From: Nonomuraea muscovyensis
GTDB taxonomy: Bacteria > Actinomycetota > Actinomycetes > Streptosporangiales > Streptosporangiaceae
Direction: 5' to 3'
Assembly (NCBI RefSeq): GCF_014207745.1
Contig: NZ_JACHJB010000001.1
Location: 62,001-126,000, forward strand
Length of the DNA stretch: 64,000 nt
The translations under genes were made by a program, and so were the position numbers. The notes below the pieces were generated by a model, which had not been told where the DNA came from, did not search any database, and saw nothing but the letters and a program-made list of their open reading frames with translations. Each line of letters begins with the position of its first letter. Within the stretch, counting starts at the first letter, position 1. Positions 49,531 through 64,000 of this stretch are shown piece by piece.

Positions 49531-51075
49531 CAACACCGTTGCGTTTGTTCGGCCGACGGTTCGTCAAGCCGGTGATCACGACGAACGGGACCTCTGGTAG
49601 ATCACTTGTGTCGAGCAAGATGATCAAGAACCAGGGGTCCCGTTGCAGGAGAAGTCTGCCATCACCCGCACGATCGAGACAGCCGCGGGCGTCCACGCGC
49701 CCGGACATCTGGGCGAGCTGACCCAGATCGTCGACTTCACGCTGGTGGATGCGGTGCTGGAGGAGACCGGGGCACGGGAGAAGCGGTTACGGCTGCTGCC
49801 CGCCCGGGTGGTGGTCTACTTCACCCTCGCCCTGGCCCTGTTCGGACACTGCTCCTACCGGGCGACCTGGGGCAAGCTCACCGCCGCTCTGGGCCAGCTC
49901 GCGCCGGTGTGCCCGGCCGCCTCCTCGCTCGCGCGAGCGCGACGCCGGGTCGGCGCGGCCCCGCTGCGCCGCCTGTTCGAGATCCTCGCCGGGCCGGTAG
50001 CCGGCCCTAGCCAGGCAGGCTCGTTCTACCGGGGACTGCGCACGGTGGCGCTGGACGGCACCCACCTGCACGCCCCCGACGACGAACAGGTCACCTGGCG
50101 CTACCCGAAGCGATCCGGGGACGTGCTGGAGTTCGGCTACCCGCTGGTGCGCCTGCTGGTCGTGGTCGAGTGTGGGACCCGGGCCGTGCTCGCGGCCTGT
50201 TTCGGCCCCGAGAACCAAGGCGAAGTACCCTACGCACAGCGCTTGCTGGGCTGCTTGGACCGCTCGATGCTGCTGTTGGCGGACGCCGGTTTCGACGCGG
50301 TGGAGTTCCTGCGCCAGGTAGGCGCGACAGGCGCGCAGTTCCTGGTGCGCTCCTCCGCCCGGCGCCGCCCGGCCATCCAGCGCCGCCTGCCCGACGGCTC
50401 CTACCTGGCCCGCCTGTGCGGCGTCTACCGGGCCAGCGAGGGCTACCGGGCGCTGCCCGTCCGCGTTATCGAGGCGTGGATCACTGTCACCCTCGCCGAC
50501 GGCACCACGCGGCGTGAGCCGTGGCGCCTGGTCACCAGCCTGGTCGATCACGAGCGCTACCCCGCCGGTGAACTGGTCGCCCTCTATCACCGCAGGTGGC
50601 AAGTGGAGACCACCTACTTCTCGATCAAGGTGGCCATGCTCGACGGCCGCGTCCTGCGCTCGCGCAGCGTTGCGGGCCTGGACCAGGAGGTTTACGCGCT
50701 ACTGACGGTTTACCAGGCCCTCATTCGCACCGCCGCCGACGCGGCGGCCTCCCGGCCGGGTCTGGTCATGGAGCGGATCAGCTTCACCATCCTCCTCCAG
50801 ACGGCCCGAGACCAGGTCACCACCGCCACCGGCATCCTCCCGCCGGAGCCGGTGGCTCTCGTGGGCGCGATCGGCCGAGCCGTCCTGAACGACCTGTTGC
50901 CCGCCGAACGCCGCCAGCGTGTCAAGGCCCGCAGCCGCAAGAACCCGACCAGCAAGTACGGACCGAACGCGGGAAAGCACCCCCAGCAAGCACAGACCTA
51001 CACCCTCGAAGTCCAGATCCAGATCATGGACCATGGACTTGCATCCCGTCGGCGCCGGTAAACGCAACGGTGTTG
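49531..51075 (+). mobile_element. IS4-family insertion sequence, 1545 bp, intact
   Basis: The ends are perfect 16-bp inverted repeats (CAACACCGTTGCGTTT at 49531-49546, its complement at 51060-51075), with weaker similarity continuing inward (GCCGACGG). It is flanked by a perfect 10-bp duplication GCCTAGAAGA, the size known for IS4-group elements. One transposase gene fills it. Intact ends, duplication and frame mean a recent insertion. Confidence 0.95.
49643..51061 (+). CDS. IS4-family DDE transposase
   Basis: 472 residues. The N-terminal IS4 domain (VDFTLVDAVLEETGAREKR, ARVVVYFTLALALFGHCSY) precedes the catalytic core with TVALDGTHLHAPD (first Asp), LLADAGFDAVEF (second Asp), and the YREK-like region YHRRWQVETTYFSIK (Glu). 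TTG start 49643 follows AGGGG; no ATG fits better. It catalyses cut-and-paste movement of the element. Confidence 0.93.
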   Translation: MQEKSAITRTIETAAGVHAPGHLGELTQIVDFTLVDAVLEETGAREKRLRLLPARVVVYFTLALALFGHCSYRATWGKLTAALGQLAPVCPAASSLARARRRVGAAPLRRLFEILAGPVAGPSQAGSFYRGLRTVALDGTHLHAPDDEQVTWRYPKRSGDVLEFGYPLVRLLVVVECGTRAVLAACFGPENQGEVPYAQRLLGCLDRSMLLLADAGFDAVEFLRQVGATGAQFLVRSSARRRPAIQRRLPDGSYLARLCGVYRASEGYRALPVRVIEAWITVTLADGTTRREPWRLVTSLVDHERYPAGELVALYHRRWQVETTYFSIKVAMLDGRVLRSRSVAGLDQEVYALLTVYQALIRTAADAAASRPGLVMERISFTILLQTARDQVTTATGILPPEPVALVGAIGRAVLNDLLPAERRQRVKARSRKNPTSKYGPNAGKHPQQAQTYTLEVQIQIMDHGLASRRRR

Positions 51076-51217: not shown

Positions 51218-51862
51218 TCAGATGGTGCCGCTCTCGATGGCCTGCTTGAGGGCCGCCTGCGTCTGCTGGTGGGCTGCGGTGCCGTTGGCCGCGACGAAGT
51301 CGATCAGCGTGGCGTCCGCGTCGAAGGTGAGGCTCTCGGTGACCACGGTCTTGCCGGGGGCCAGCACCCTGAACGAGATCTTCTGGTGGGTGACCACGGC
51401 GGGCTCGGACCAGGTGTCGGTCTCGTAGGAGAAGCTCGCGGGGTTGAGGCGCTGCTGGGCGTGCACCTTGTTGGTGACGATCGTGCCCTGGTACGGGATC
51501 TCCTCGATGGCGGTGAGGTTGACGTACCGTGTGCCGGCCAGGCGCCAGTCCTTGTGGGTGACGACCCGCTTGAGGAACGGGTTGGGGCCGATGTGGTTGT
51601 CGAGGTCCGAGTAGGCGGCGAACACCTGCTGGATGGGCCGGTCGATCTCGATGGAGATCTCGCTGACGGCCCTGCTGCGACCCGAGTCCGGGGCGGGCGG
51701 CGTGGTGTCGTAGAACGCGTGGGTGTCCCAGGCGGCCTGCCACTCGGCGGCCAGTTCGGCGTCGGTCTGGGCGGTGTCCGCGGTGGCGGGCCCGGAGGCG
51801 GCGCTGACGAGGAAGGCCCCGGCGAGCAGAGGGGCCGCGGCGAGGCGAAGGAAGTGCTTCAC
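51218..51862 (-). CDS. Secreted SRPBCC (START-like) family protein
   Basis: 214 residues. The signal peptide (KHFLRLAAAPLLAGAFLVSA, cleavage near GPATA) is followed by a START-like fold: VSEISIEIDRPIQQVFAAYSD, LAGTRYVNLTAIEEIPYQG, and a final helix (HQQTQAALKQAIESG). Such proteins bind hydrophobic ligands. GTG 51862 has AAGGTG 5-6 nt upstream. Function unknown. Its promoter shares a motif with the GntR gene and the hydrolase at 62597. Confidence 0.78.
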   Translation of the reverse strand: MKHFLRLAAAPLLAGAFLVSAASGPATADTAQTDAELAAEWQAAWDTHAFYDTTPPAPDSGRSRAVSEISIEIDRPIQQVFAAYSDLDNHIGPNPFLKRVVTHKDWRLAGTRYVNLTAIEEIPYQGTIVTNKVHAQQRLNPASFSYETDTWSEPAVVTHQKISFRVLAPGKTVVTESLTFDADATLIDFVAANGTAAHQQTQAALKQAIESGTI

Positions 51863-51882
51863 ATACACCTTCAGGTAGAGGC

Positions 51883-51903
51883 GATGGTACGGATGTCCTT
51901 CTA
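51883..51903 (-). promoter_or_regulatory. Promoter of the SRPBCC gene with motif GGACATCCGTAC
   Basis: On the minus strand a -10-like TAGAAG (51898-51903) runs directly into the motif GGACATCCGTACC (51886-51898). Same motif and orientation as at 52042-52057 and 63443-63458. The likely reading is an operator over the transcription start. Confidence 0.5.
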
Positions 51904-52009
51904 CCGCAGACACGTGCCCTTTTTCCGGCATTTCGCCGGAATGATCAAATTGTGAACATCTGTGGGCCGGATCCTCACATGCGAAGGCCGACTCAGGTGC
52001 GCCGGCCTG

Positions 52010-52057
52010 TTGACATGATCCGGCTCGGCCGGAAAAGATACGGTCGTCCGTACAAAT
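52010..52057 (+). promoter_or_regulatory. GntR-gene promoter and operator candidate
   Basis: TTGACA at 52010-52015, AAAGAT at 52034-52039 (18-bp spacer), then GGTCGTCCGTACAAAT at 52042-52057, four bases before the ATG. The motif overlaps the palindrome TACGG-TCGT-CCGTA (52039-52052). The position fits autorepression by the GntR protein. Confidence 0.6.
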
Positions 52058-52061
52058 AAGG

Positions 52062-52838
52062 ATGGACGACATGACTGACTGGGAACGTCGGCTGGCCCTC
52101 GACCCGTCAGCCGCTGTGCCGCTCTACTACCAGCTGCGCGAGCGACTGCGGGCGGTCATCCGCGACTGCGAGCCCGACACCCTGATCCCCGCCGAGAAGG
52201 ACCTCATGGTCTACGCCGGCGTGAGCAGGGCCACGGCTCGCCGGGCGATCGGCGACCTCGTCCAGGAAGGGCTGCTGGTCGCCCGGCAGGGCAGCGGCAC
52301 CTACACCGCGCCGATGGCCGTGGCCCCCGAGCTGGGCGCGCGCCCGGCCGGGTTCACCGAGACGATGGCGCGGCTCGGGCGCAAGCCCACGACGCAGGTG
52401 CTCAGGGCCCACCGGCAACCGGCGGGCACCGACGCCGGCGTCGCGCTCGGCCTGGACGAGTCCCAGGAGATCGTCTTCATCGAGCGGCTGCGGCTGATCG
52501 AGGGTACGCCCTGCATGCTGGAGAGCGCCCACCTGCCTGCCGACCTGGTGCCGGGAATCCTCGACGAGGACCTGACCGGCTCGCTGTACGACCTGCTGCG
52601 CATGAAGTACGGCCTGTCCCCCGCGAGCGGCAGGGAGACGATCGGCGCGGTCAACGCCGACTACCGGCTCGCCGAGCTGCTGCGCGTGCCGATCGCCGCG
52701 GCCTTGCTGGCCACCGCCCGCAGCACCAGCACCGACAGCGGGGCCGCGCTCGAATACACCATCCGCCACGCGCGCGGCGACTTCGCGGTGTTCTCCGTGG
52801 AGCTCAACGACGCCAAGAACGCCCTGATGGGCCAGTAA
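52062..52838 (+). CDS. GntR/HutC-family regulator with UTRA domain
   Basis: 258 residues. The winged helix includes YYQLRERLRAVIRDC and LIPAEKDLMVYAGVSRATARRAIGDL, and the UTRA ligand domain continues from ~90 (IVFIERLRLIEGTPCMLESAHLP). HutC-type regulators sense sugars, sugar phosphates or amino acids. It lies 69 bp ahead of the sugar transport operon on the same strand and is probably its local repressor. Confidence 0.9.
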   Translation: MDDMTDWERRLALDPSAAVPLYYQLRERLRAVIRDCEPDTLIPAEKDLMVYAGVSRATARRAIGDLVQEGLLVARQGSGTYTAPMAVAPELGARPAGFTETMARLGRKPTTQVLRAHRQPAGTDAGVALGLDESQEIVFIERLRLIEGTPCMLESAHLPADLVPGILDEDLTGSLYDLLRMKYGLSPASGRETIGAVNADYRLAELLRVPIAAALLATARSTSTDSGAALEYTIRHARGDFAVFSVELNDAKNALMGQ

Positions 52839-52907: not shown

Positions 52908-54194
52908 ATGACCATGATGACCCGGCGCCGCCTGCTCGGAGCAGCCGCACTGACCACGGCGGCCGGCCTCCTCGCCGCCTGTGGCTCCGAACCGGAGGCG
53001 ACGGTGCCGGCCGACGGCGTCCCGCGGGGGAAGCTCTCCGTCTGGCTGCACCAGACCAAGGCCTACGACTCGGTGTTCACCTCCCTGCTGCACAGCTACA
53101 TCCAGGAGTTCGGCGGCGTCGACATCACCCCGCTCTACGTGCCGGTCGACAAGCTCGACGCCAAGCTCCTGACCGCCTTCGCGGGAGACGCTCCCCCGGA
53201 CCTGTTCAAGATTGGCGGCTGGACCGTCGCGGGCCACGCCCGCAAGGGACGGCTCGCGCCGATCATCCCCAAAGCCATGGGGGCGACCGACGAGAAGGCG
53301 CTGGTCGCGAAGTACGACCAGAGCGCCGTCAACTCGCTGTCCTACCAGGGCAAGCTCTACGGCGTCCCGATCGACTACACGATCTGCTGCCTCTACTACC
53401 GCAGGGACAGGTTCGCCGAAGCCGGGCTCGACCCGGACAAGCCGCCCACGACGTGGGAGGAGGTCGCCGAGTACAGCAAGAGGCTCACCTCGGCCGACGG
53501 CAAGAAGGTGGGCCTGCAGTGGATACTGGGCAACCCGCAGTGGACGGTGATGCAGCTGCTCGCCCTGGTGAGAGGGAAGGGAGGCGGGATACTCAGCGCC
53601 GACGCGGGCACGGCCACGCTCGCCACGGACGCCGGGGTCGAGGCGCTGCGCTACTACGGCGGCCTGGGCAACGCGAAGCTGTCCAACCCGCTGTCGGGGT
53701 TCGGGCTGTTCGCCACCGGCGAGGCGGCCATGGTGGTCTCCGGGCTGTTCGCGATGGACCTGTTCCCCGCGCTGAACAAGAAGCTCGTGTTCGGCGAGTC
53801 CTTCGACATCGCCCCGCTGCCGCGCTGGGACGGCGGCCGGCCGGTCGCCCCGGCCTACACCTGGGGCTGGGCGGTCGCCGAGCACTCGAAACTGCAGTAC
53901 ACCGCCTGGCACTTCATCGACTACCTGCAGCGCGCGGACGTCGCGGCCAGGCAGCTCATGGACGCGAGCCTGCTCACCCCGGTCAAGGGCTGGGAGAAGC
54001 TGCCCAGCACGGACACCAAGACGATGGAGATCATGGCGGCCTCCGCCCCGTACGCCGACTTCGGCCCGCAGACTCCGGTGTGGCAGGAGATGGCCAAGTC
54101 GCTGACCGACGCCGCCGACGCGGTGGCCTTCGGCAAGAAGACGCCCGAGCAGGCGGCCGCGGACTTCGACCAGGCGATGAGGAGAGCGCTGTGA
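52908..54194 (+). CDS. Sugar ABC transporter substrate-binding lipoprotein (family 1)
   Basis: 428 residues. The start TRRRLLGAAALTTAAGLLAACG combines a twin-arginine-like region with a lipobox. The family 1 fold is seen in KLSVWLHQTKAYD, DLFKIGGWTVAGHARKGRLAPI, LYGVPIDYTICCLYYRRD and AYTWGWAVAEHSKLQ. It binds a sugar or oligosaccharide and delivers it to the two following permeases. No dedicated ATPase is in the operon, as is usual for actinobacterial sugar importers that share MsiK. ATG 52908 has GGAGG at 6-7 nt. Confidence 0.92.
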   Translation: MTMMTRRRLLGAAALTTAAGLLAACGSEPEATVPADGVPRGKLSVWLHQTKAYDSVFTSLLHSYIQEFGGVDITPLYVPVDKLDAKLLTAFAGDAPPDLFKIGGWTVAGHARKGRLAPIIPKAMGATDEKALVAKYDQSAVNSLSYQGKLYGVPIDYTICCLYYRRDRFAEAGLDPDKPPTTWEEVAEYSKRLTSADGKKVGLQWILGNPQWTVMQLLALVRGKGGGILSADAGTATLATDAGVEALRYYGGLGNAKLSNPLSGFGLFATGEAAMVVSGLFAMDLFPALNKKLVFGESFDIAPLPRWDGGRPVAPAYTWGWAVAEHSKLQYTAWHFIDYLQRADVAARQLMDASLLTPVKGWEKLPSTDTKTMEIMAASAPYADFGPQTPVWQEMAKSLTDAADAVAFGKKTPEQAAADFDQAMRRAL

Positions 54195-55108
54195 CCCTGA
54201 CCGCCCGCCTGGACAGGCCCGCCCCCAGGGTGTCGGGCCGGGGACAGCGGTGGGCCGAGGCGCGCGCCGGGAGCCTGCTGGCGCTCCCCGCGGCGATCTA
54301 CTTCCTCGTCTTCTGGGTCGTGCCGTTCGCCGGCGCCGTCTACCTCAGCTTCACCAGCTACGACCTGGCCGGCCTGCCCGAGTGGACCGGCCTGGACAAC
54401 TACCGCAGGATGCTCGACGACCCCGGCTTCTGGAACTCGGCCGAGGTCACCGCGGTGTTCACGGTCGCGTCCGTGGTCCCGTCGATCGTGCTCGGGCTCG
54501 CGATCGCCGTCCCGCTGAGCAAGCCCGGCCGGCTGAACGGCGTCCTGCGCGCGCTGGTCCTGATCCCGGCGGCGATGCCGCTCGTGGCCACCTCGATGGT
54601 GTGGTCGGCGATCTTCGCGGACCATGGCCTGGCCAACACGCTGATCGGCCTCGTCGGAATCGAGCCGAAGCCGTGGCTGACCGAGGAGGGGCTCGCCCTC
54701 TGGGCCCTGGTCATCATGACGACCTGGAAGCACCTCGGACTGTTCGTCATCATCCTCACCGCGGGGCTGCAGGGGCTGCCGAGCGAGGTGTTCGAGGCGG
54801 CCGCGCTCGACGGCGCCGGCCCGATCCGGGCCTTCGCCCGCATCACGCTCCCGCTGCTGCGCCGGACGCTGCTGTTCGTGCTGGTCATCGCGGTGGTCGG
54901 GGCGATGCAGTCGTTCGTTCCCGCCTTCCTGCTCACCAAGGGCGGGCCGGCGGGCGCCACCGAGGTTCTGCCGCTCTACCTGTGGGCGACCGGCTTCGGG
55001 TTCGAGCGCATGGGGTACGCCTCGGCGATCGCCATGGTGCTCCTCGTGGCCATGCTCGCGCTCTCGCTCGTGCAGTTCGGCGTGCTCAAAGGAGGCGATG
55101 ACGGATGA
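54191..55108 (+). CDS. Sugar ABC permease (MalF/UgpA type)
   Basis: 305 residues, about six membrane helices; starts at GTG 54191 in a 4-nt overlap with the SBP gene. The cytoplasmic EAA loop is FEAAALDGAGPIRAFARITLPLLR, and the N-terminal hydrophobic segment ALPAAIYFLVFWVVPF is typical. Forms a heterodimer with the next permease. Confidence 0.93.
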   Translation: MTLTARLDRPAPRVSGRGQRWAEARAGSLLALPAAIYFLVFWVVPFAGAVYLSFTSYDLAGLPEWTGLDNYRRMLDDPGFWNSAEVTAVFTVASVVPSIVLGLAIAVPLSKPGRLNGVLRALVLIPAAMPLVATSMVWSAIFADHGLANTLIGLVGIEPKPWLTEEGLALWALVIMTTWKHLGLFVIILTAGLQGLPSEVFEAAALDGAGPIRAFARITLPLLRRTLLFVLVIAVVGAMQSFVPAFLLTKGGPAGATEVLPLYLWATGFGFERMGYASAIAMVLLVAMLALSLVQFGVLKGGDDG

Positions 55109-55905
55109 GGGCGCTGCGCGGCACGTTGCTGTCGCTGGTCGTGCTGGTCATGCTGCTGCCGGTCTACGCGATGTTCGCCCTCTCCTCGGCCTCCGACGCG
55201 ACCGATCTCGGCGGGCTCACCTTCGACGCCTCCCAGCTCGGCGAGCACCTCTCCCAGCTGTTCGGCCAGGGCGACTTCCCGCTCTACCTGCGCAACAGCA
55301 TGATCCTCTCCCTCGGTGTCGCCGTCCTGGAGGTGGTCTTCTCCGGGGCGGCCGGCTACGCCCTGGCGCAGCTCACGTTCCCCGGCAGGCGGGTGCTGTT
55401 CACGGTCGTCGTGGGCACGCTGTCGCTGTCGCCGATCGTGGTGCTCGTGCCGATGTACCTCGTCGTCAAGCAGCTGGGCTGGATCGACTCGTTCCAGGGC
55501 ATGATCGTCCCGTTCATGATGAGCGCGTTCGGCGTGTTCCTCGTCCGCCAGTTCGCCCTCTCCGTGCCGCGGGAGCTGCTGCTGTCGGCGCGCGTGGACG
55601 GCGCGGGCGAGCTGCACATCTTCCTGCGCGTCGGGGTGCCGCTGCTGCGTCCGGCGCTGCTCACGCTCTTCCTGCTGCAGTTCCTCGCGCAGTGGGACAA
55701 CCTGCTCTGGCCGCTCGTCGTGGCCAACGATCCCCGTCTGTGGCCGCTGCCCGTGGGCCTGTCGCAGCTGCAGACGGAGTACGACTTCAGCATCGGCCTG
55801 GTCAGCACCGCCGCCCTGGTCACGGCCGTGCCGCCGCTGGTGCTGATGTTCGTCCTGCAGCGCTACTACGTGGCCGGGCTGACGCTGGGAGGCGTGAAGA
55901 AATGA
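55105..55905 (+). CDS. Sugar ABC permease (MalG/UgpE type)
   Basis: 266 residues, six membrane helices. The EAA loop is LLSARVDGAGELHIFLRVGVPLLRP; IVPFMMSAFGVFLVRQF and QWDNLLWPLVV are MalG-like. 4-nt overlaps on both sides. Confidence 0.93.
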   Translation: MRALRGTLLSLVVLVMLLPVYAMFALSSASDATDLGGLTFDASQLGEHLSQLFGQGDFPLYLRNSMILSLGVAVLEVVFSGAAGYALAQLTFPGRRVLFTVVVGTLSLSPIVVLVPMYLVVKQLGWIDSFQGMIVPFMMSAFGVFLVRQFALSVPRELLLSARVDGAGELHIFLRVGVPLLRPALLTLFLLQFLAQWDNLLWPLVVANDPRLWPLPVGLSQLQTEYDFSIGLVSTAALVTAVPPLVLMFVLQRYYVAGLTLGGVKK

Positions 55906-57902
55906 GCGCATTCGGCGCATGGACCACCGCGCACGGACTGCCCGCCTTCTCCTACACGATGGACCAGGAACGGGATCCGCGCGCCGAGTGGGACCCCATC
56001 CTGGAACCGCCCACCCGGCGGCACGCCGTCCACCTGGGAAACCGGCGGATCACGCTGGTGGCCGACAACTACGGCCTGAGCGGCCTGTTCGACGAGCACA
56101 CGGCCCTGCGGTGGCTCACGCGCGACACGGGCGTCACCCGGGTGGGCGAACTCTCGACGGATATTTCGGGATCCGAGCGGATATTCGGGCCGACGTTCGT
56201 GATCGTCCGGGTGGCGGATGACCAGGTGTCGCTGGAACGCACCGTGCTCTGCCCCGAGGGCGAGGCGCCGTGGGTGCTGATCCGGCTGCGCGTGCGCAAC
56301 CTGCTCGGCGAGCCGGCCCGGCTGACGCTGACCGAGGAGTGGGCGGCGAGACCCGCCCAGGTCAACCTCATCAGCGGCACAGCGCCCAGCACAGGGCCGG
56401 ACGAGGACGTCGGACTCGAACTCGAACTCATCGGCGGCGCGCGGCCGCGCAGGACCGGATCGGGGCGGCTGGCCGTCCCCCTCCTGCTCGCGGCCCACGG
56501 CGAGCGGGTGGTCGAGCTCAGGTACGGCCTGCTCGACGACACGGCGCCGTCGTTCGAGGGCAGCCTGGCCGCCTTGCGCGACCGGCTGCCCCGGGCGTCC
56601 GCGCCGCGGGCGCCCGAGGCCGAGCGTGAGATCCCGTGGCACGCGGCGCTGCTGACCGGCGCGGCCTGCGCGGACGGCGTGCTCGGCGGGCACACCCTCG
56701 ACCAGGGATCGTGCTACTCCTTCAGGCACGGCTTCAACGGCGCCGCCCGCGACCCGCTCCAGCACGCGCTGCCGCTGGTCTACATCGAGCCGGATCTGGC
56801 CCTGTCCGTGCTGCGCAACACGTGCGCCTGGGGCAGCCCCGACGGCGATCTGCCCTACGCCCTCGGACCGGACAAGCAGCCGTGGACCGACCTGTTCCGG
56901 CCGTCGGACCAGAACCTGTGGGCACTGTGGCTGGCGGCCGAATACCTGTCCGCCACCGGCGAGGAGGCGGCCTTCCGCGAGCCCGTGCCGTACCACCCGC
57001 TCCACCGCGCCGCGCCGGTCCCGCTCGGAGAGCACCTGCGCAGGCAGTTCAGGTTCTTCACCGACGTGGTCGGGCGGGGAGAGCACGGCCACGTGCGGAT
57101 GCTGAACGCCGACTGGAACGACATGGCCATCACCGAGAGCGGAGTCGACCGCGAGCTGATGATCGCGCAGGGCGAGTCCGTCCTGAACTCGGCCATGGCC
57201 GCCTGGGTGCTGCCGCGGTACGCGGTGCTGGCCGAGCGGCTCGGCGACCTCGTGACCGCGGCAGAAGCGCGCAAGCTCGGCGAGGAACTGCGCGGGCTGG
57301 TGGCCGAGGAGTGGAACGGCCGCTGGTTCCGGCGCGCCTACGGCCCCGGAGCCGTCGTCGGCGACTCCGACATGTGGCTGGAGGTGCAGCCGTGGGCGAT
57401 CCTGTGCGGCGCCACCCCGCCCGGCCGCGCGGCGGAGCTGTTGCGCAGGATCGAGGCCACGGCCGCCGCCGGCTCGCCGCTGGGCGCCCGGCTGCGCTGG
57501 CCCGTCCGGGAACACCACGGCCCCGGCGGCGTCGGCACGATCTGGTACGCGATCAACATGACGCTCATCTGGGCCGCCGCCGACCACGTTCCCGAGCTGG
57601 GCTGGCAGTGGTGGCGCCGGATGTCCCTGGCCGCGCACGCGAACGCCTACCCGGACGTCTGGGAGGGCACCCTGTCCGGGCCCGACGCCTACCTGGCGCC
57701 CGAGACCGACCGGCCCGGCCGCACCTGGGACCTCGCCGACCTCGGCATCGCCATGCAGGCGTATCCCGTCGCCAACCTGCACAGCCACTCCCAGCCGCTG
57801 CTGGCCTACCTGCGGCTGCTCGGCGTCGAGCCCTTCAGCGAGCGCGCGGGGACAGGTGACGGCGCCCGGTTCGCCTCGCGCGCCCTGACGGTGGGCCCAT
57901 GA
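55902..57902 (+). CDS. GH94-like glycoside phosphorylase/hydrolase
   Basis: 666 residues, shorter than the ~800 of typical GH94 enzymes. An N-terminal beta-sandwich (RHAVHLGNRRITLVADNYGL and the following strands) precedes an (alpha/alpha)6-type region with CYSFRHGFNGAARDPLQ (Arg283-Asp284...Gln287, like the RDxxQ element) and NADWND (Asp404-Trp-Asn-Asp407), the motif holding the catalytic aspartate in GH94. Later GPGGVGTIWYAINM and HANAYPDVWEGTLSGPDAYLAPE complete the fold. Cellobiose/chitobiose-type phosphorolysis is the best guess; hydrolysis is possible. It is cytoplasmic (no signal) and follows the permeases with a 4-nt overlap. Confidence 0.82.
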   Translation: MSAFGAWTTAHGLPAFSYTMDQERDPRAEWDPILEPPTRRHAVHLGNRRITLVADNYGLSGLFDEHTALRWLTRDTGVTRVGELSTDISGSERIFGPTFVIVRVADDQVSLERTVLCPEGEAPWVLIRLRVRNLLGEPARLTLTEEWAARPAQVNLISGTAPSTGPDEDVGLELELIGGARPRRTGSGRLAVPLLLAAHGERVVELRYGLLDDTAPSFEGSLAALRDRLPRASAPRAPEAEREIPWHAALLTGAACADGVLGGHTLDQGSCYSFRHGFNGAARDPLQHALPLVYIEPDLALSVLRNTCAWGSPDGDLPYALGPDKQPWTDLFRPSDQNLWALWLAAEYLSATGEEAAFREPVPYHPLHRAAPVPLGEHLRRQFRFFTDVVGRGEHGHVRMLNADWNDMAITESGVDRELMIAQGESVLNSAMAAWVLPRYAVLAERLGDLVTAAEARKLGEELRGLVAEEWNGRWFRRAYGPGAVVGDSDMWLEVQPWAILCGATPPGRAAELLRRIEATAAAGSPLGARLRWPVREHHGPGGVGTIWYAINMTLIWAAADHVPELGWQWWRRMSLAAHANAYPDVWEGTLSGPDAYLAPETDRPGRTWDLADLGIAMQAYPVANLHSHSQPLLAYLRLLGVEPFSERAGTGDGARFASRALTVGP

Positions 57903-58777
57903 CGCGCCCCACGGGCCGAGCCGGGACGCGGCTCGGCGTCGACGTCGGCGGGACGGACACCAAATGGGTGCTGCTCGACGGTGACACGGTGGTCGATTCC
58001 GGCACCGTGGCCACGCCGCCGGGCCCCGACGAGACGATGAAGCTCGTGGCGGCGCTGGCCGCTCCGCACGTCGAGAGCATCGGGATGGGGCTGCCCGGCC
58101 ACGTGGACCGGGACACGGGCACCGCGCTGTTCGTGCCCAACCCGCCGGGCGACTGGGACGGCTACCCGGCCGGCCCCCGGCTGAGCGCCCTGACCGGGGT
58201 GCCGGTGGCCGTGGTCAACGACGCGCGGGCTTTCGCCCTGGCGGAGCTGCTTCTGGGGGCGGCCCGGGGGCTGTCCGACGTGCTGTTCGCCGTTCTCGGC
58301 ACCGGGGTGGGCGGTGCGGTGGCGCTGCGCGGCGAGATCCTCGTCGGTCCCCGCGACAACGTCGGCGAGGTCGGGCACGTCACGGTCGATCCGTGGGGGT
58401 CGCCGTGCTGCTGCGGCAACAGGGGGTGTGTGGAGACGCTCGCCGGGGGGCCCGGGATCGTGCGGGCCTTCGGCGCGGGCCCGGCCTCGGCGGTCGCCGC
58501 GGCCGCCCGAGCCGGTGACGAGCGGGCTGTGAGCGTGCTCGCCAAGGCCGGCTGGGCGCTCGGCATCGCGCTGGGCGACGCCGCGTCGCTGTTCGGAGCG
58601 CGCGCGGTGGTCGTGGGCGGCGGCGTCTCCGGTGCCCTCGATCTCATGGGTGCCGCCCTGCGGGAAGAGCTCGGGCGCAGACGCGCGCTCATCGGTGACA
58701 TCGCGGTGCTGCCCGCCGTCCTCGGCCCGAGGGCAGGGGCGATCGGCGCCGCGCTCTATGGAGGGAGATCTGGATGA
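57899..58777 (+). CDS. ROK-family sugar kinase
   Basis: 292 residues. The ATP-binding loop is GVDVGGTDTKWVL, the sugar-binding segment is VVNDARAFALAE, and the ROK zinc site is seen as GHVTVDP then CCCGNRGCVETL. It phosphorylates a hexose, probably the free sugar liberated by the GH94-like enzyme. ATGA overlaps on both sides. Confidence 0.93.
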   Translation: MTRPTGRAGTRLGVDVGGTDTKWVLLDGDTVVDSGTVATPPGPDETMKLVAALAAPHVESIGMGLPGHVDRDTGTALFVPNPPGDWDGYPAGPRLSALTGVPVAVVNDARAFALAELLLGAARGLSDVLFAVLGTGVGGAVALRGEILVGPRDNVGEVGHVTVDPWGSPCCCGNRGCVETLAGGPGIVRAFGAGPASAVAAAARAGDERAVSVLAKAGWALGIALGDAASLFGARAVVVGGGVSGALDLMGAALREELGRRRALIGDIAVLPAVLGPRAGAIGAALYGGRSG

Positions 58778-59559
58778 AGTGGATACGGCGGGCGATGGAG
58801 CTGCTCGGCGAGATCGAGCGAACACAGGAGGAGGCCCTCGCGGCGGCGGCGGACATCGCCTACTCCGCCATCGGCGGCGGAGGCGTGGTGCACACGTTCG
58901 GCACCGGCCACTCGCGGATCGGTGTGGAGGAGATGTTCCCCCGCTACGGCTCGTATCCCGGGTTCCATCCCATCGTGGACCTGTCGACGACGTTCTACAC
59001 GCAGGTCGCCGGGTCGAACGGGATGCGCCAGGCGATGTTCGTCGAGCGGGTCGAGGGGCTGGCCGACGCCATCCTGGCCAACTTCGAGCTCCGGCCGACC
59101 GACGCGGCGATCATCTTCAGCGTCAGCGGGCTGAACGCGGTGCCCATCGAGATGGCGATGGGCCTGCGCAAGGCGGGGCTGTCCGTGGTGGCCGTGACCT
59201 CGATGCGGGAGACCACGGCCGTCGAGCCCGGCCACCCCAGCGGAACCCGGCTCGCCGACCACGCCCATGTGGTGATCGACCTGTGCACCCCGGTGGGCGA
59301 CGCGCTGTGCTCCGTGGACGGCCTGGCCGAGCCGGTCGGTCCCGGCAGCACGCTGGCCGCGGTCTCCGTGGTCAACGAGATCAAGGTGCGTACGGCGGAG
59401 CGGCTGGTCGCCGGCGGCTGGACACCGCCGGTGATCTCCAGCGCGAAGCTCGTCGGCGGCCCGCGCTCCGAGGAGCTGTTCGAGGCCGCCTACCTGGAGC
59501 ACGCCCGCCGCGCCGCCGACGTGCTCAGGAAGCCGGCCGACGTGCCCGGGAAGCCATGA
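58774..59559 (+). CDS. SIS-domain sugar-phosphate binding protein (UPF0309-like)
   Basis: 261 residues. The SIS pattern begins GGGGVVHTFGTGHSRIGVEEMFPRYG and continues with FSVSGLNAVPIEMAMGLRKAGL. UPF0309 proteins are SIS-only isomerase-like or regulatory proteins of amino-sugar metabolism. The reaction is unknown. It sits between a kinase and two oxidoreductases, fitting a phosphosugar step. Confidence 0.88.
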   Translation: MKWIRRAMELLGEIERTQEEALAAAADIAYSAIGGGGVVHTFGTGHSRIGVEEMFPRYGSYPGFHPIVDLSTTFYTQVAGSNGMRQAMFVERVEGLADAILANFELRPTDAAIIFSVSGLNAVPIEMAMGLRKAGLSVVAVTSMRETTAVEPGHPSGTRLADHAHVVIDLCTPVGDALCSVDGLAEPVGPGSTLAAVSVVNEIKVRTAERLVAGGWTPPVISSAKLVGGPRSEELFEAAYLEHARRAADVLRKPADVPGKP

Positions 59560-60248
59560 GCGCGGTTCTGGTGGCCGGCTCGGAGGGCGGCATCGGCCGC
59601 GCCTGCGTCGAGGCGGTCGAGGCGTCCGGTGTGCCGGCCTTCGGCGTGGACCTGGCCGACGGGGTCGACATCACCCGGCCCGGCGGGGCGGAGAAGGCGC
59701 TGGCCCACGCGACGGCCGCGCACGGGGCGGTCTCCGGTGTCGTGCACGCCATCGGCATGTCCGGCAGGGCGCTCGGCGACGGCGGCGTGAGCGACTGCAC
59801 CGACGTGGCGTGGAGCGAGGTGCACAGGGTCAACCATGAGTCGGTCTTCCGGCTGCTGCGCGCGGCGATCCCGGCGATGCCGCGCGGCGGGTCGATCGTG
59901 GTGATCGGCTCGGCGCTGGGCACGTCGATCGACGACGACTTCCGCACCGTCGCCTACGCCTCAGCCAAGGGCGCGCTGATCCCGTTGATCAGGACCGCCG
60001 CCCGCGAGGCGGCGCCGCACGGGGTGCGGGTCAACCTGGTCTCCGCCGGGCTGGTGGCCACGCCGATGAGCCGCCGCGCCCAGACCTCCGAGACCATCCA
60101 GGCGAAGCTGCCCTCGCTGATGCCGCTCGGCGCCCGGCTGTGCCGGCCGGAGGAGGTCGCCCAGGCCGTGCTCTGGCTGCTCTCGCCGTCGTCCGGGCGG
60201 ACCACGGGCGCGGTCATCCCCGTCGACGGAGGGTGGCACCTGCGATGA
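59556..60248 (+). CDS. Short-chain dehydrogenase
   Basis: 230 residues. Cofactor loop AGSEGGIGRA, catalytic Ser in VVIGSALG and YASAKGAL with Tyr/Lys, and the C-terminal TGAVIPVDGGW. It oxidises or reduces a hydroxyl of the sugar with NAD(P). Coupled by 4-nt overlaps to both neighbours. Confidence 0.9.
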   Translation: MSAVLVAGSEGGIGRACVEAVEASGVPAFGVDLADGVDITRPGGAEKALAHATAAHGAVSGVVHAIGMSGRALGDGGVSDCTDVAWSEVHRVNHESVFRLLRAAIPAMPRGGSIVVIGSALGTSIDDDFRTVAYASAKGALIPLIRTAAREAAPHGVRVNLVSAGLVATPMSRRAQTSETIQAKLPSLMPLGARLCRPEEVAQAVLWLLSPSSGRTTGAVIPVDGGWHLR

Positions 60249-61468
60249 ACGTGCTGTGGACAGGCGACGTGGTGGTGGCGGGCGGGGGCAGCGCGGGCTG
60301 CGCCGCCGCGGTGGCCGCCGCGCGCGCCGGGGCGTCGTGCCTGCTGGTGGAGTCGGCGGGCTTCCTCGGGGGGACGGGGGCCGCGGTCCTCGACACCTTC
60401 TACGGGTTCTACTCCCCCGGCCCCGAGGCGCCGCGCGTCGTCGGCGGCATCGGCTGGGAGGTGTGCGAGCGGCTGTTCGAGGCCGGGGCGGCCTTCGAGC
60501 GGCCCAACACCTACGGCGCGGGAACCGGGGTCACCTACGAGCCCGAGGAGCTCAAGGTCGTCTGGGACTCGCTCACCTCGGACGCCGATGTGCTCCTGCA
60601 CGCCCGGGTCTGCGACGTCGTGCCGGACGCCGGTGTCGTCGTGGAGACCGTGGCCGGCCGGTTCCTGGTCAGGGCCCGGGTGGTGGTGGACGCCACCGGC
60701 GACGCCGAGGTGGCCTGGCGGGCCGGGGCCACCCTCGAACGCCCGGGCATGCGGCTGCAGCCGATGACGACCACGTTCCGGCTGGGCGGGGTGGACCCGT
60801 CCGCCACGAGCACGGCGGAGCTGCACGCGCTGATGGCCGGCGCGGACCTGCCCAGGCGCGAGGGGTCGGTGCACCGGACCGTGCGGGACGGGATCGTGCA
60901 CACCAACCTCACCCGGGTGAGCGGCCTCGACCCGACCGACCCGTTCGAGCTGTCACAGGCCGAGCGGGAGGGACGGCGGCAGGTCGGCGAGTACGTCCGC
61001 TTCCTGCGCGAGAAGGTCCCCGGCTACGGCTCCGCGGTGCTGCTGAGCACGTCGGTGCGGATCGGGGTGCGGGAGTCCCGCCGGCTGGTCGGGCGGTACG
61101 TCCTGACCGCTGACGACGTGCTGGCCGGGCGGGACTTTCCCGACACGATCGCCCGCTGTGGTGCGCCGATCGAGGATCACGACTCCGGATCGGGCACCCG
61201 GTGGGAGTACGTCCGCGACTTCCGCACCTACGGGATCCCGTACCGGTGCCTGCTTCCCGTGGAGGTGGGCGGGCTGATCGTGGCGGGACGCTGCCTGTCC
61301 GCCACGCACGACGCCCACGCCTCCGCCCGGTCCATGGGCCAGTGCATGGCGATGGGTCAGGCGGCGGGGACGGCCGCGGCGCTGGCCGTGAAGGCGGGCG
61401 TGGAGCCCGCAGAGGTGGACGCGGGCCTGCTGCGCGAGCGGCTGCGCGAGGAAGGAGCCCTGCTGTGA
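60245..61468 (+). CDS. FAD-dependent oxidoreductase (FAD_oxidored family)
   Basis: 407 residues. FAD-binding start DVVVAGGGSAGCAAAVAAARAG and the VESAGFLGGTGA stretch, a VVDATGDAEVAWRAGA strand, and the C-terminal LIVAGRCLSATHDAHASARSMGQ with GQAAGTAAALA. The family includes FAD-linked oxidoreductases of carbohydrate clusters; the acceptor is unknown. Its stop is followed at once by a ten-codon mini-ORF and then the PTE gene. Confidence 0.87.
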   Translation: MNVLWTGDVVVAGGGSAGCAAAVAAARAGASCLLVESAGFLGGTGAAVLDTFYGFYSPGPEAPRVVGGIGWEVCERLFEAGAAFERPNTYGAGTGVTYEPEELKVVWDSLTSDADVLLHARVCDVVPDAGVVVETVAGRFLVRARVVVDATGDAEVAWRAGATLERPGMRLQPMTTTFRLGGVDPSATSTAELHALMAGADLPRREGSVHRTVRDGIVHTNLTRVSGLDPTDPFELSQAEREGRRQVGEYVRFLREKVPGYGSAVLLSTSVRIGVRESRRLVGRYVLTADDVLAGRDFPDTIARCGAPIEDHDSGSGTRWEYVRDFRTYGIPYRCLLPVEVGGLIVAGRCLSATHDAHASARSMGQCMAMGQAAGTAAALAVKAGVEPAEVDAGLLRERLREEGALL

Positions 61469-61500
61469 TGGTCGGCGTTCTGCGGAGGGTGCTGCTGTGA
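61468..61500 (+). CDS. Ten-codon mini-ORF bridging two genes (putative)
   Basis: ATG at 61468-61470 shares its A with the preceding TGA, runs ten codons (MVGVLRRVLL), and ends in TGA 61498-61500, which overlaps the GTG start of the next gene. AAGGAG lies about 10 nt before its ATG. This is the only sugar-operon junction after the SBP gene without a direct 4-nt overlap. It may simply keep ribosomes moving (coupling) or be a chance frame. Confidence 0.4.
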   Translation: MVGVLRRVLL

Positions 61501-62495
61501 CGATCCGCACCGTGCTCGGTGACGTCGAGGAGCTCGGCGTCACCTACGCGCACGAGCACCTGTTCATGACCGGCGGCTGGCCGGTGCGCGAGGAGCCGGA
61601 CTACCGGCTCGACTCCCTCGACGCGGCCGTCGCGGAGGTGTCGGCGGCGCGGCGCCTCGGCCTGTCGGCGGTGGTGGAGATGACGCCGCTGGGCTTCGGC
61701 CGCAGCCCGTCGCTGATGAGGGAGCTGGCCGAGCGGACCGGCCTGCACGTCGTCGCGGTGACGGGCTTCCACAAGAGCCGCTACTACGCCGACGATCACT
61801 GGCTGCACCACTACACGGCCGACGAGATCACCGAGTTGCTGGTGTCGGAGATCGAGCTCGGCATGGACGAGTACGGCCTGGTCGGGCCCCTGGTGCGGCG
61901 CTCGCCCGCCCGGGCGGGTGCCATCAAGATCGCGACGGGGTACCACGCGTTCGGCCGGGGGGTCGGGCGGCTGGTCGGGGCGGTGGCCGCCGCCGCGCTG
62001 GCCACCGGCGTGCCGGTCGTGAGCCACTGCGACAAGGGCACGATGGGCCACGAACTGCTCGACGCCCTGGCGGCCGAGGGTGTCCCGGCCGACTGGGTGG
62101 TGCTCGGCCACATCGACCACAACCCCGATGCCGGATATCTCATCTCATTGGCGGAGAGAGGGGCTTATCTGGCCTTTGACCGGCCGGGCCGGATCAAGTA
62201 CGGCACGGACAGTGAGATCGTCGCGCTCGTCGCGGAGCTGGCCGGGCACGGTCTGGGTGACCGGCTGCTGTTCGGCATGGACCTGGCGCGCCGGTCGTAC
62301 TGGCCGAGCCTGGGCGGGGGGCCGGGGCTGAGGTACCTGTTGGAGAGGTTCGTCCCGCGGCTGGAGGCCGCGGGACTCGGCGAGGTGGCGGCGGCGGCGC
62401 TGACCGGCAACCCGGGCGCCGCCTTCGCGCTCCGCGACCTCCTGGCGGCGGGGGCGGACGGCGACGCTCGGACGAATCGTCCGGCCCGCCCGTGA
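61497..62495 (+). CDS. Phosphotriesterase-like lactonase (PTE/PLL family)
   Basis: 332 residues, amidohydrolase-type barrel. The binuclear metal ligands are His19 and His21 (YAHEHLF), carboxylated Lys144 (AIKIATGY), His177 (VSHCDKG), His205 (GHIDHN) and Asp262 (FGMDLAR). Most natural members hydrolyse lactones, so an oxidised sugar lactone from the SDR or FAD enzyme is a reasonable substrate (inference). GTG 61497 has GGAGG at 8 nt. Last gene of the operon. Confidence 0.9.
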   Translation: MTIRTVLGDVEELGVTYAHEHLFMTGGWPVREEPDYRLDSLDAAVAEVSAARRLGLSAVVEMTPLGFGRSPSLMRELAERTGLHVVAVTGFHKSRYYADDHWLHHYTADEITELLVSEIELGMDEYGLVGPLVRRSPARAGAIKIATGYHAFGRGVGRLVGAVAAAALATGVPVVSHCDKGTMGHELLDALAAEGVPADWVVLGHIDHNPDAGYLISLAERGAYLAFDRPGRIKYGTDSEIVALVAELAGHGLGDRLLFGMDLARRSYWPSLGGGPGLRYLLERFVPRLEAAGLGEVAAAALTGNPGAAFALRDLLAAGADGDARTNRPARP

Positions 62496-62596: not shown

Positions 62597-63424
62597 CTAG
62601 GGCAGGTTCTTCTCGACCTGGTTCTGCCAGCCCGCGTTGGTGTTGATCTCGGGGGTGGCGCCCGCGAACGCGCCGCGCGCGTACGCGTCGTCCTGGAGCT
62701 GGTACATGAGCCAGGCCGTCAGGTAGCCGAGGAAGCCGCCGCCCGTGCCCTGGATCGTGTTGTGGCCGGCGCCCTTGAGCAGCGCCTTCGCCGCGGCGCC
62801 GGGCACCTCGCCGTAGTATGCCTGGATCGCGGAGTTGGGAGAGATGAGGACGTCCTTGGCCCCGCTGAGGAACAGCACCGGGCAGGTCAGCCGGCTGACG
62901 GAGAACGCGTCTCCCGAGCTCACCCAGATCGGCGCGGGCAGGGCGATGGGGACGACGGTGTCGATGAGGCCGGCGGACTTGGTGGCGGTGTTGACCGAGC
63001 CGCCGGCGCCCTGGGAGTGGCCGACCGCGCCGACCTTGGTCACGTCGAGCTTGCCGTAGAAGACGCTGGAGGTGTCGGTGTTCCTGCCGATCAGGTACTG
63101 CGCCGCGGCGATCATCTCGGACCCGGTGCCCGTCGTGGTGTCGGTCGACGCGACGACGGCGAAGCCCCAGGAGGCGAGCTGGTTGAGCACGCCGGAGTAC
63201 TGCGTGGGCACGGCGTTGGTGCCGTTGCCCCAGGTGATGATCGGATGCTTGAAGCCGCCCGCGCCGAGGTCGGCCGGGTAGGAGAGGCGGTAGCCCGGCA
63301 CGTCGGCCGTGGCGACCGCCCAGGGGCCCGCCGCCCTGTAGTGCGCCTCGATCGTGTCCGCCGTCCGGGCCGGACTCGCGATGACTGCCTGCACGAGTAA
63401 GACGGCTGCCGCAAGGAGCCTCAT
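62597..63424 (-). CDS. Secreted alpha/beta hydrolase (cutinase/PHA-depolymerase-like)
   Basis: 275 residues. A signal peptide ends near SPARTAD. The nucleophile is Ser137 in GHSQGAGGS, the acid is Asp191 in SGAKDVLISP and the base His221 in GAGHNTIQ. It is an extracellular esterase or polyester/lipid hydrolase. Its start region contains a TTGACA promoter and a motif almost identical to the one in front of the GntR gene. It converges on the sugar operon. Confidence 0.88.
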   Translation of the reverse strand: MRLLAAAVLLVQAVIASPARTADTIEAHYRAAGPWAVATADVPGYRLSYPADLGAGGFKHPIITWGNGTNAVPTQYSGVLNQLASWGFAVVASTDTTTGTGSEMIAAAQYLIGRNTDTSSVFYGKLDVTKVGAVGHSQGAGGSVNTATKSAGLIDTVVPIALPAPIWVSSGDAFSVSRLTCPVLFLSGAKDVLISPNSAIQAYYGEVPGAAAKALLKGAGHNTIQGTGGGFLGYLTAWLMYQLQDDAYARGAFAGATPEINTNAGWQNQVEKNLP

Positions 63425-63442: not shown

Positions 63443-63490
63443 ATTTGTACGGATGACCGGAACTCTGGCTTCACACGCGCCTCTTGTCAA
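63443..63490 (-). promoter_or_regulatory. Promoter and operator candidate of the secreted hydrolase
   Basis: Minus strand: TTGACA at 63485-63490, 17-bp spacer, CAGAGT at 63462-63467, then GGTCATCCGTACAAAT (63443-63458), which matches 15 of 16 bases of the motif before the GntR gene. Confidence 0.6.
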
Positions 63491-63506: not shown

Positions 63507-64000
63507 ATGGACCACGTGCCCTCCGCAGCGGAGATGCTCAGCTGGATCGAGACCGTCGTGTCGCGCGGCATCCGCCGCCCCGGCTATCCGGCGGACGTGT
63601 GGACGGAAGGGTGGCTGGCCGATCGGCTGGCCGGGTTCGGGCTCGACGTCGCGCTGGAGCCGGTGGAGGTGACCCGCTGGCAGCCGGGCACCGGAGTCCT
63701 GCGCCTGGAGGACGGCACCGAACTCCCCGGCCTGCCCCTGCCGTTCACCGCGCCGACCGGCGGCCTGCGCGCCAGGGTCGCCCCGCTCGCCGACGCGCGG
63801 CCCGGCGACATCGCGGTGGACGAGTTGGCCTTCGCCGAGGTGCCGCAGTCGTTCGTCAGGGCGCTGGCCACGTCGGCCTACGATCCGGAAGGGGTCTTCG
63901 ACACGCTGGTCCAGACGATCCCGTTCGGACCCCGGATGATGCAGGTCGTGGAGCCCGCCCTGGACGCGAGCGCCGCCGGGTTCGTGGGCGCGCTGACGGG
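63507..64000 (+). CDS. Unidentified protein, N-terminal part (peptidase M28-like?), cut by window edge
   Basis: Frame open from ATG 63507 to the end of the window (about 164 residues). It begins MDHVPSAAEMLSWIETVV, then DVWTEGWLADRLAGFGLDVALEPVE, followed by beta-rich sequence. This layout (helix, EGWLADRLAGFG, then a PA-like insert) resembles the start of M28/M20 aminopeptidases, but no metal motif is reached. No signal peptide. Divergent from the hydrolase gene. Confidence 0.6.
   Translation, partial: MDHVPSAAEMLSWIETVVSRGIRRPGYPADVWTEGWLADRLAGFGLDVALEPVEVTRWQPGTGVLRLEDGTELPGLPLPFTAPTGGLRARVAPLADARPGDIAVDELAFAEVPQSFVRALATSAYDPEGVFDTLVQTIPFGPRMMQVVEPALDASAAGFVGALT

Follow-up and report, generated by a model that had tools for sequence, protein, structure and literature searches.

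A GntR-linked sugar operon of Nonomuraea muscovyensis and its conserved kinase–SIS–SDR–FAD–PTE core: a proposed route through dehydration and a lactone phosphate

The DNA analysed here is a stretch of 64,000 nucleotides of Nonomuraea muscovyensis (contig NZ_JACHJB010000001.1, positions 62,001 to 126,000), which we refer to as the window, and it contains at 52908–62495 a sugar operon of nine collinear plus-strand genes, all of them open. This operon is real and conserved, and the chemistry that we propose for it below is a hypothesis. At seven of its eight junctions the genes overlap by 4 nt (GTGA at 54191; ATGA at 55105, 55902, 57899, 58774, 59556 and 60245), the exception being the FAD to PTE junction, where the FAD stop at 61468 is followed by a 28-nt gap and the GTG start of the PTE gene at 61497, which has its own ribosome-binding site (GGAGGG). 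A ten-codon open reading frame on the same strand (61468–61500) overlaps this stop and start, and may be there by chance since the PTE gene has its own ribosome-binding site. The layout is as an earlier sequence-only reading had described it, and the families named in that reading are borne out by Pfam and NCBIfam.

The first three of the nine genes encode a sugar ABC importer consisting of a binding lipoprotein (52908–54194; SBP_bac_1, 121 bits) and two permeases with BPD_transp_1 matches (54191–55108, UgpA-like in NCBIfam, and 55105–55905, UgpE-like); there is no ATPase subunit among the operon genes. They are followed by a GH94-fold glycosidase-like protein of 666 residues (55902–57902; Glyco_hydro_94, 77 bits, cut-off 27), a ROK-family sugar kinase (57899–58777; 179 bits), a NagS-like SIS-domain protein of the UPF0309 type (58774–59559; SIS_2) that we propose, from NCBIfam and the NagS residues, to be a sugar-phosphate dehydratase, an SDR oxidoreductase (59556–60248; adh_short_C2, 160 bits), an FAD-dependent oxidoreductase of PF12831 (60245–61468; FAD_oxidored, 344 bits), and a protein of the phosphotriesterase (PTE) family (61497–62495; PTE, 150 bits) whose metal and phosphate residues suggest a phospho-1,4-lactonase. 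To these must be added a tenth gene, missing from the sequence-only reading, for a GntR/UTRA (HutC-type) regulator (52062–52838; UTRA 115 bits, GntR 47 bits) located 69 nt upstream of the importer gene. Because a single conserved promoter-operator precedes this gene and those that follow it in the same orientation, we take the unit to be ten genes with GntR as the first. By Pfam, none of the ten is an aldolase or an Edd-type 6-phosphogluconate dehydratase.

The promoter region (52020–52055, plus strand) ends in an 18-bp operator directly 5' of the GntR gene, with the core ATACGGTCGTCCGTACAA at 52038–52055 forming the inverted repeat TACGG-N4-CCGTA. A pattern scan of the window and genome gives a second copy with 3 mismatches on the minus strand (63445–63462), lying between two divergent genes. 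About 20 nt downstream of it is the gene for a secreted PETase-like alpha/beta hydrolase (62597–63424, minus strand; PF12740, 55.5 bits; leader peptide by eye), and on its other side an M28-family peptidase-like gene starts at 63507 on the plus strand and runs past the window end at 64000; a homologue of the latter (L025:13058–14380) matches PF04389 with 37.7 bits. The two places in the window, where none is expected from 100 shuffles, are the only sites in the genome (9.23 Mb) when up to 3 mismatches are allowed, only that at 52038–52055 is exact, and the reversed control pattern has no match in the genome. Among 36 loci scanned, both sites are present in 12 of 12 from Nonomuraea, including two (L023 and L025) that lack some core genes, while the 24 other loci have none at up to 3 mismatches and a 4-mismatch site in four. 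TTGACA stands 5' of the operator in 12 of 13 sequences. Since the operator occurs before the GntR gene and again before the esterase/peptidase pair, GntR most likely controls both the operon and this pair.

Gene counts at related loci were taken from tblastn, as the gene caller had missed some genes in this high-GC DNA. Nonomuraea accounts for 12 of the 21 loci found with the GH protein, and when conserved clusters with the same set were looked for, ten of these 12 were found to carry GntR, GH, ROK, SIS, SDR, FAD and PTE in the same order, together with the binding protein and permeases. The other two are partial (GntR, GH and SIS in L023; GntR, importer and GH in L025), and the nearest locus is that of N. 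indica, with a GH protein at 94%. The GH gene was present in 14 of 297 genomes of the order (E 1e-40), all of them Nonomuraea. Copies without the core occur in Kutzneria, Lentzea and four metagenome-assembled genomes (MAGs) of other phyla (L027–L032, L034–L036), and in the examined flanks of these nine loci, some on short contigs, tblastn found no ROK, SIS, FAD or PTE gene; for this reason the GH gene outside Nonomuraea is uninformative on the substrate. One such copy (L035) may act outside the cytoplasm, as it starts with what looks by eye like a twin-arginine leader.

Outside the genus, in other Actinomycetota and in Bacteroidota and Deinococcota, the core is found again, in most cases with no GH gene. 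On these comparisons the unit of interest is a five-gene core of a ROK or FGGY kinase, SIS, SDR, FAD and PTE, to which the GH gene is an add-on, so that the nine genes taken as a unit by the sequence-only reading are not the most informative grouping. A class sample of 394 genomes gave matches to SIS in 12 (1e-40), PTE in 32 (1e-40) and FAD in 12 (1e-60); all nine genomes with a SIS match of at least 69% also have FAD at 70% or above and a PTE match, and in the three others, where SIS reaches just 39%, FAD has no match at 1e-60. All five core genes are present in each of seven loci of genus g97 chosen for a SIS match of 69–70%, none of which has a GH94-like gene; here PTE lies to one side of GntR and ROK-SIS-SDR-FAD to the other, with importer genes next wherever these were called. 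In two further g97 loci (L090 and L091) PTE-SIS-FGGY-SDR faces FAD-importer. A phylum sample of 246 genomes had FAD matches at 1e-70 in nine, our own genome included, and six of the eight others were examined (L155–L160). One of these, from another class of Actinomycetota (L155), has ROK-SIS-SDR-FAD-PTE in the window order (45, 61, 56, 69 and 60%), three (L156–L158) are core variants in which ROK and SDR flank a DeoC gene, and two (L159 and L160) have FAD at 41–43% and no other core genes.

Among 72,556 plasmid records there were 42 matches to SIS, 134 to FAD and 135 to PTE, and the four best FAD records all have core neighbours. Deinococcus aetherius carries FGGY-SDR-FAD-PTE-Eda-SIS after an importer, Persicobacter SDR-ROK-SIS-FAD-PTE, Spirosoma SDR-ROK-SIS-TIM barrel-FAD-PTE, and Haliscomenobacter SDR-SIS-FAD-PTE. 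Besides its core genes, the Persicobacter locus encodes a protein related to the window GH protein (26%; 99.9 in hhalign probability), together with a true GH94 enzyme that is nearest to N,N'-diacetylchitobiose phosphorylase (748 vs 566 bits). Listeria has phosphotransferase system (PTS) genes with PTE-creatininase-KDGP aldolase-SIS, and Alicyclobacillus PTE-creatininase-KDGP aldolase-GntR-xylulokinase. Identities to the window proteins are 29–69% for SIS (n=8), 42–68% for FAD (n=7) and 30–46% for PTE (n=9, which include Listeria, Alicyclobacillus and Mycoplasmopsis), and over eight clusters the FAD and PTE identities have a Spearman coefficient of 0.83. A creatininase-family protein together with a KDGP or Eda aldolase and with PTE or SIS was observed in three distant species (L131:7428–8177, L129:17628–18317 and L130:9954–10706).

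The window SIS protein scores 260.3 bits against NF002805 (UPF0309 SIS; curated cut-off 135 bits), and its best solved relative is NagS (SCO4393). In Streptomyces, NagS dehydrates N-acetylglucosamine 6-phosphate (GlcNAc-6P) to 2-acetamido-2,3-dideoxy-hex-2-enofuranose 6-phosphate, with H53, R64, E94 and D179 essential, S91 and N228 important, and N228 in contact with GlcNAc-6P (PMC12680351, excerpt). The four essential residues are kept in the window protein and in seven core-cluster SIS proteins, and the window protein further shares with NagS the UPF0309 SIS fold and the phosphate-site serines S54, S119 and S121, although it has a six-residue insertion after R64. The gene contexts also differ, as the window gene lies in a catabolic operon between the ROK and SDR genes, with kinase, oxidoreductases and lactonase, whereas the NagS gene is beside dmdR1. 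The core gene set is absent from other SIS contexts seen in Agrobacterium, Martelella, Vibrio, Planococcus, Nitratireductor and Enterococcus. In one g97 locus (L089:8494–13630) a SIS protein at 55–57% is accompanied by an MGH1-like (GH63-type) glycosidase and a family-5 binding protein, other core genes being absent, and the SIS matches to short unannotated contigs recorded as Listeria phage (H106–H110) are probably host DNA.

The sequence-only reading noted that the operon has no aldolase, which is correct for the operon itself and not for several of its relatives. A DeoC gene is present in L156–L158 (TIGR00126, 214–235 bits, cut-off 117), Eda in the Deinococcus cluster and a second Persicobacter set, and KDGP aldolase in Listeria, with SIS, and Alicyclobacillus. 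Aldolases of these three kinds act on 2-deoxy-aldose or 2-keto-3-deoxy-acid phosphates, and because of this some step in the clusters must remove water. The SIS protein is the only dehydratase candidate seen in the related clusters, whose annotations show no Edd or IlvD type, no model search for Edd or IlvD having been made. Two of the three DeoC clusters carry the SIS subtype of the window (58 and 66%). As the NagS product is a furanose and relatives of the window PTE open furanose lactones, the dehydration and lactone steps would join. N. muscovyensis has three Eda-type PF01081 genes and one DeoC elsewhere in its genome; a PF07071 search of the genome gave no match, and its control gave no signal either.

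The nearest solved relatives of the window PTE are 3msr and 3pnz, presumably the Ms0025 and Lmo2620 proteins, which strengthens the lactonase assignment made from sequence. By alignment the window protein has the metal-ligand set of HxH, Lys, two His and Asp, along with K, R and Y at positions that we take to be phosphate contacts; the L090 protein lacks the K. According to a review, Ms0025 and Mag6390 act on phosphorylated 1,4-lactones (PMC10971088, excerpt). The PTE fold and all of these residues are common to the window protein and these two lactonases. The window protein differs in that its best NCBIfam row, NF045706 (phospho-furanose lactonase), is at 187 bits, under the equivalog cut-off of 630 bits, and in having no ascorbate genes nearby. 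Elsewhere, a PTE relative heads a group of ascorbate-catabolism-like genes (L115:9882–13170; HPS/UlaD-, UlaE- and UlaF-like by eye), with an annotated equivalent in Mycoplasmopsis (L132; UlaD, UlaE and UlaF types), and this relative may be an alternative ascorbate-6-phosphate lactonase.

A model of the GH94-like protein from a 20-sequence alignment has a pTM of 0.89, and its best Foldseek rows are GH94 enzymes. Comparison with GH94 structures by VIA-align gives a Z of about 32 over residues 2–666 (for 3qde, Z 32.2 and root-mean-square deviation 4.2 over 602 aligned residues), the best PDB rows are all GH94, and the best 50 fold rows contain no family besides GH94 and other (alpha/alpha)6 enzymes. 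The protein has in common with the cellobiose and N,N'-diacetylchitobiose phosphorylases the fold, the RD motif, the Gln of L-x-x-Q and the catalytic Asp of DWND (D407), which aligns with GH94 and is invariant in 20 of 20 family members, two short rows included. However, it is about 150 residues shorter and lacks both the phosphate-pocket His and the W-x-(S/T)-G motif, the latter presumably part of the GH94 phosphate site. The His, located via the cellobiose phosphorylase entry 3act (titled 'Histidine mutant'), aligns with A550 and is A or S in all 20 aligned members, and the motif is replaced by an invariant N625-x-H627-x-H629. Conservation makes D595 a candidate for the base. Because these two elements of the phosphate site are absent from the family, phosphorolysis appears unlikely and hydrolysis more likely, which goes against the phosphorolysis proposed from sequence earlier. 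In 60 class genomes PF17167 (GH94 family) had no match at E 1e-30, a limit at which the window's own protein was also missed.

From these data we propose a catabolic regulon controlled by GntR. The secreted esterase, perhaps with the M28 amidase/peptidase, would trim an acylated glycoside, the ABC importer would bring in the resulting small glycoside, and the GH94-fold enzyme would split it, hydrolysis being more likely than phosphorolysis. The monosaccharide would then be handled by the five-gene core: the ROK kinase would make the 6-phosphate; the NagS-like SIS protein, after ring opening, would remove water with the C3 hydroxyl to give a 2,3-unsaturated or 3-deoxy furanose phosphate; the SDR and FAD enzymes would oxidise this to a 1,4-lactone phosphate; PTE would open the lactone to a deoxy-sugar-acid phosphate; and a DeoC- or Eda-type aldolase, encoded in trans here and within the cluster elsewhere, would cleave it. 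The genes, their layout and conservation, the operators and the residues are direct observations, from which we infer each reaction, the order of reactions, the division of the oxidations between the two enzymes and the substrate. Taken as a whole the route is tentative, with a likelihood that we place a little short of even. Possible, and somewhat more doubtful, is the wider view that such a route exists in at least three phyla with a NagS-type SIS dehydratase in place of a sugar-acid dehydratase, the sugar phosphate being dehydrated first, then oxidised, opened by PTE and cleaved by an Eda, KDGP or DeoC aldolase, and that its supply in Nonomuraea comes from a GH94-fold glycosidase that no longer has a phosphate site.

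An oxidised deoxy-sugar acid phosphate cleaved by an aldolase is also the logic of the Entner–Doudoroff pathway, and the proposed route would share it; the operon differs in having no Edd/IlvD dehydratase, and water would be removed by the SIS protein ahead of the oxidation or close to it. The L-ascorbate (Ula) pathway has a step in which a hexose 1,4-lactone 6-phosphate is hydrolysed, and lactone phosphate hydrolysis would be common to both, PTE relatives occurring in Ula-type clusters, although the operon has no gene of the UlaD, UlaE or UlaF type. We found no paper on the gene set in open-access PubMed Central text, subscription journals lying outside this scope, in keeping with the view from sequence that the combination matches no described pathway. 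An imported glycoside, a kinase step and a lactone-forming oxidation, all suggested in the sequence-only reading, are likewise supported.

A number of observations weigh against the proposed route. For the SIS branch of the window, dehydration is read from the NagS residues, and the two other important positions differ: S91 is replaced by M in the window protein, in g97 and in three Bacteroidota sets and by Q or L in the remaining three, whereas N228, which is K in the window and K, A or H across the core clusters, is kept only in Spirosoma. Of four NagS homologues assayed on GlcNAc-6P, one at 65.5% was active and three at 26–36% were inactive or negligibly so (PMC12680351, excerpt), and because of this the substrate of the window protein should be a sugar phosphate other than GlcNAc-6P. 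The SIS proteins of the two Eda clusters are a distant subtype (27–36% to the rest), and the SIS and FAD identities of the eight clusters do not correlate significantly in a mirror-tree comparison (Spearman 0.22). The core is incomplete in Haliscomenobacter, where there is no kinase match, and in the second Persicobacter set (SIS-SDR-FAD-ROK-creatininase-Eda), which is without PTE; the 6.9 kb contig of L156 has no SIS and that of L158 ends inside FAD. The FAD enzyme has just weak matches among solved structures, to other flavoproteins, none of which explains it, and its predicted model is poor (pLDDT 47.6). Finally, the operon encodes two oxidoreductases and one oxidation is needed for a lactone.

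An alternative explanation is that the SIS protein is an ordinary aldose–ketose isomerase or epimerase, in which case a rare sugar 6-phosphate would be converted through a 1,4-lactone to an aldonate phosphate entering pentose-phosphate or ascorbate-type metabolism, without dehydration. SIS domains do include isomerases, and Pgi and GmhA are in the tree of the NagS paper (PMC12680351, excerpt); the ascorbate-type clusters of L115 and Mycoplasmopsis and an Enterococcus PTE adjoining galactonate dehydratase are also consistent with this. It is nevertheless somewhat unlikely, given that, among SIS relatives of described function, the nearest is a dehydratase sharing all four essential residues, and that the presence of DeoC, Eda and KDGP aldolases as neighbours implies intermediates of the deoxy type. 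The glycoside might instead contain an N-acyl amino sugar, the SIS protein being a variant NagS acting on its 6-phosphate and the M28 enzyme removing the acyl or peptidyl group. The GlcNAc-6P substrate of NagS (PMC12680351, excerpt), the chitobiose-type GH94 of Persicobacter, the distant SIS relatives that adjoin nagA or nagB, and the M28 gene in the regulon all fit amino-sugar catabolism, but the residue contacting GlcNAc-6P is changed in the window and varies among the core clusters, and by Pfam the operon has no NagA or NagB family gene, which leaves it improbable.

We regard as distinctly improbable the route of the sequence-only reading, in which a GH94 phosphorylase yields a sugar 1-phosphate and a free sugar, the latter is phosphorylated by the kinase, and a lactone is then formed by oxidation. 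The full-length GH94 fold, the Pfam score above cut-off and the catalytic Asp kept throughout the family are as expected for such an enzyme, and the loss of the phosphate-pocket His is not decisive by itself since a cellodextrin phosphorylase with Gln at this position is active (PMC6720390, excerpt), which counts in some measure against hydrolysis in the proposed route. Set against this are the A or S at that position together with N-x-H-x-H in place of W-x-(S/T)-G, and within GH65 a phosphate site lost in this way is the mark of a hydrolase (PMC8626586, excerpt).

If the dehydration and lactone route is correct, it would give SIS proteins a pathway role beyond Streptomyces NagS, assign functions to a branch of PF12831 flavoproteins as well as some of the phosphotriesterase family, and place a new glycosidase family beside GH94. 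As the five genes adjoin and have recognisable chemistry, the pathway is directly testable in vitro.

Two further features lie upstream of the operon. An open reading frame for an IS4-like DDE transposase, recognised by eye from its translation, is situated at 49643–51061 on the plus strand, 1 kb upstream of the operon region, and a minus-strand gene facing the GntR gene (51218–51946) matches Polyketide_cyc2 weakly (27.5 bits against a cut-off of 27.4).

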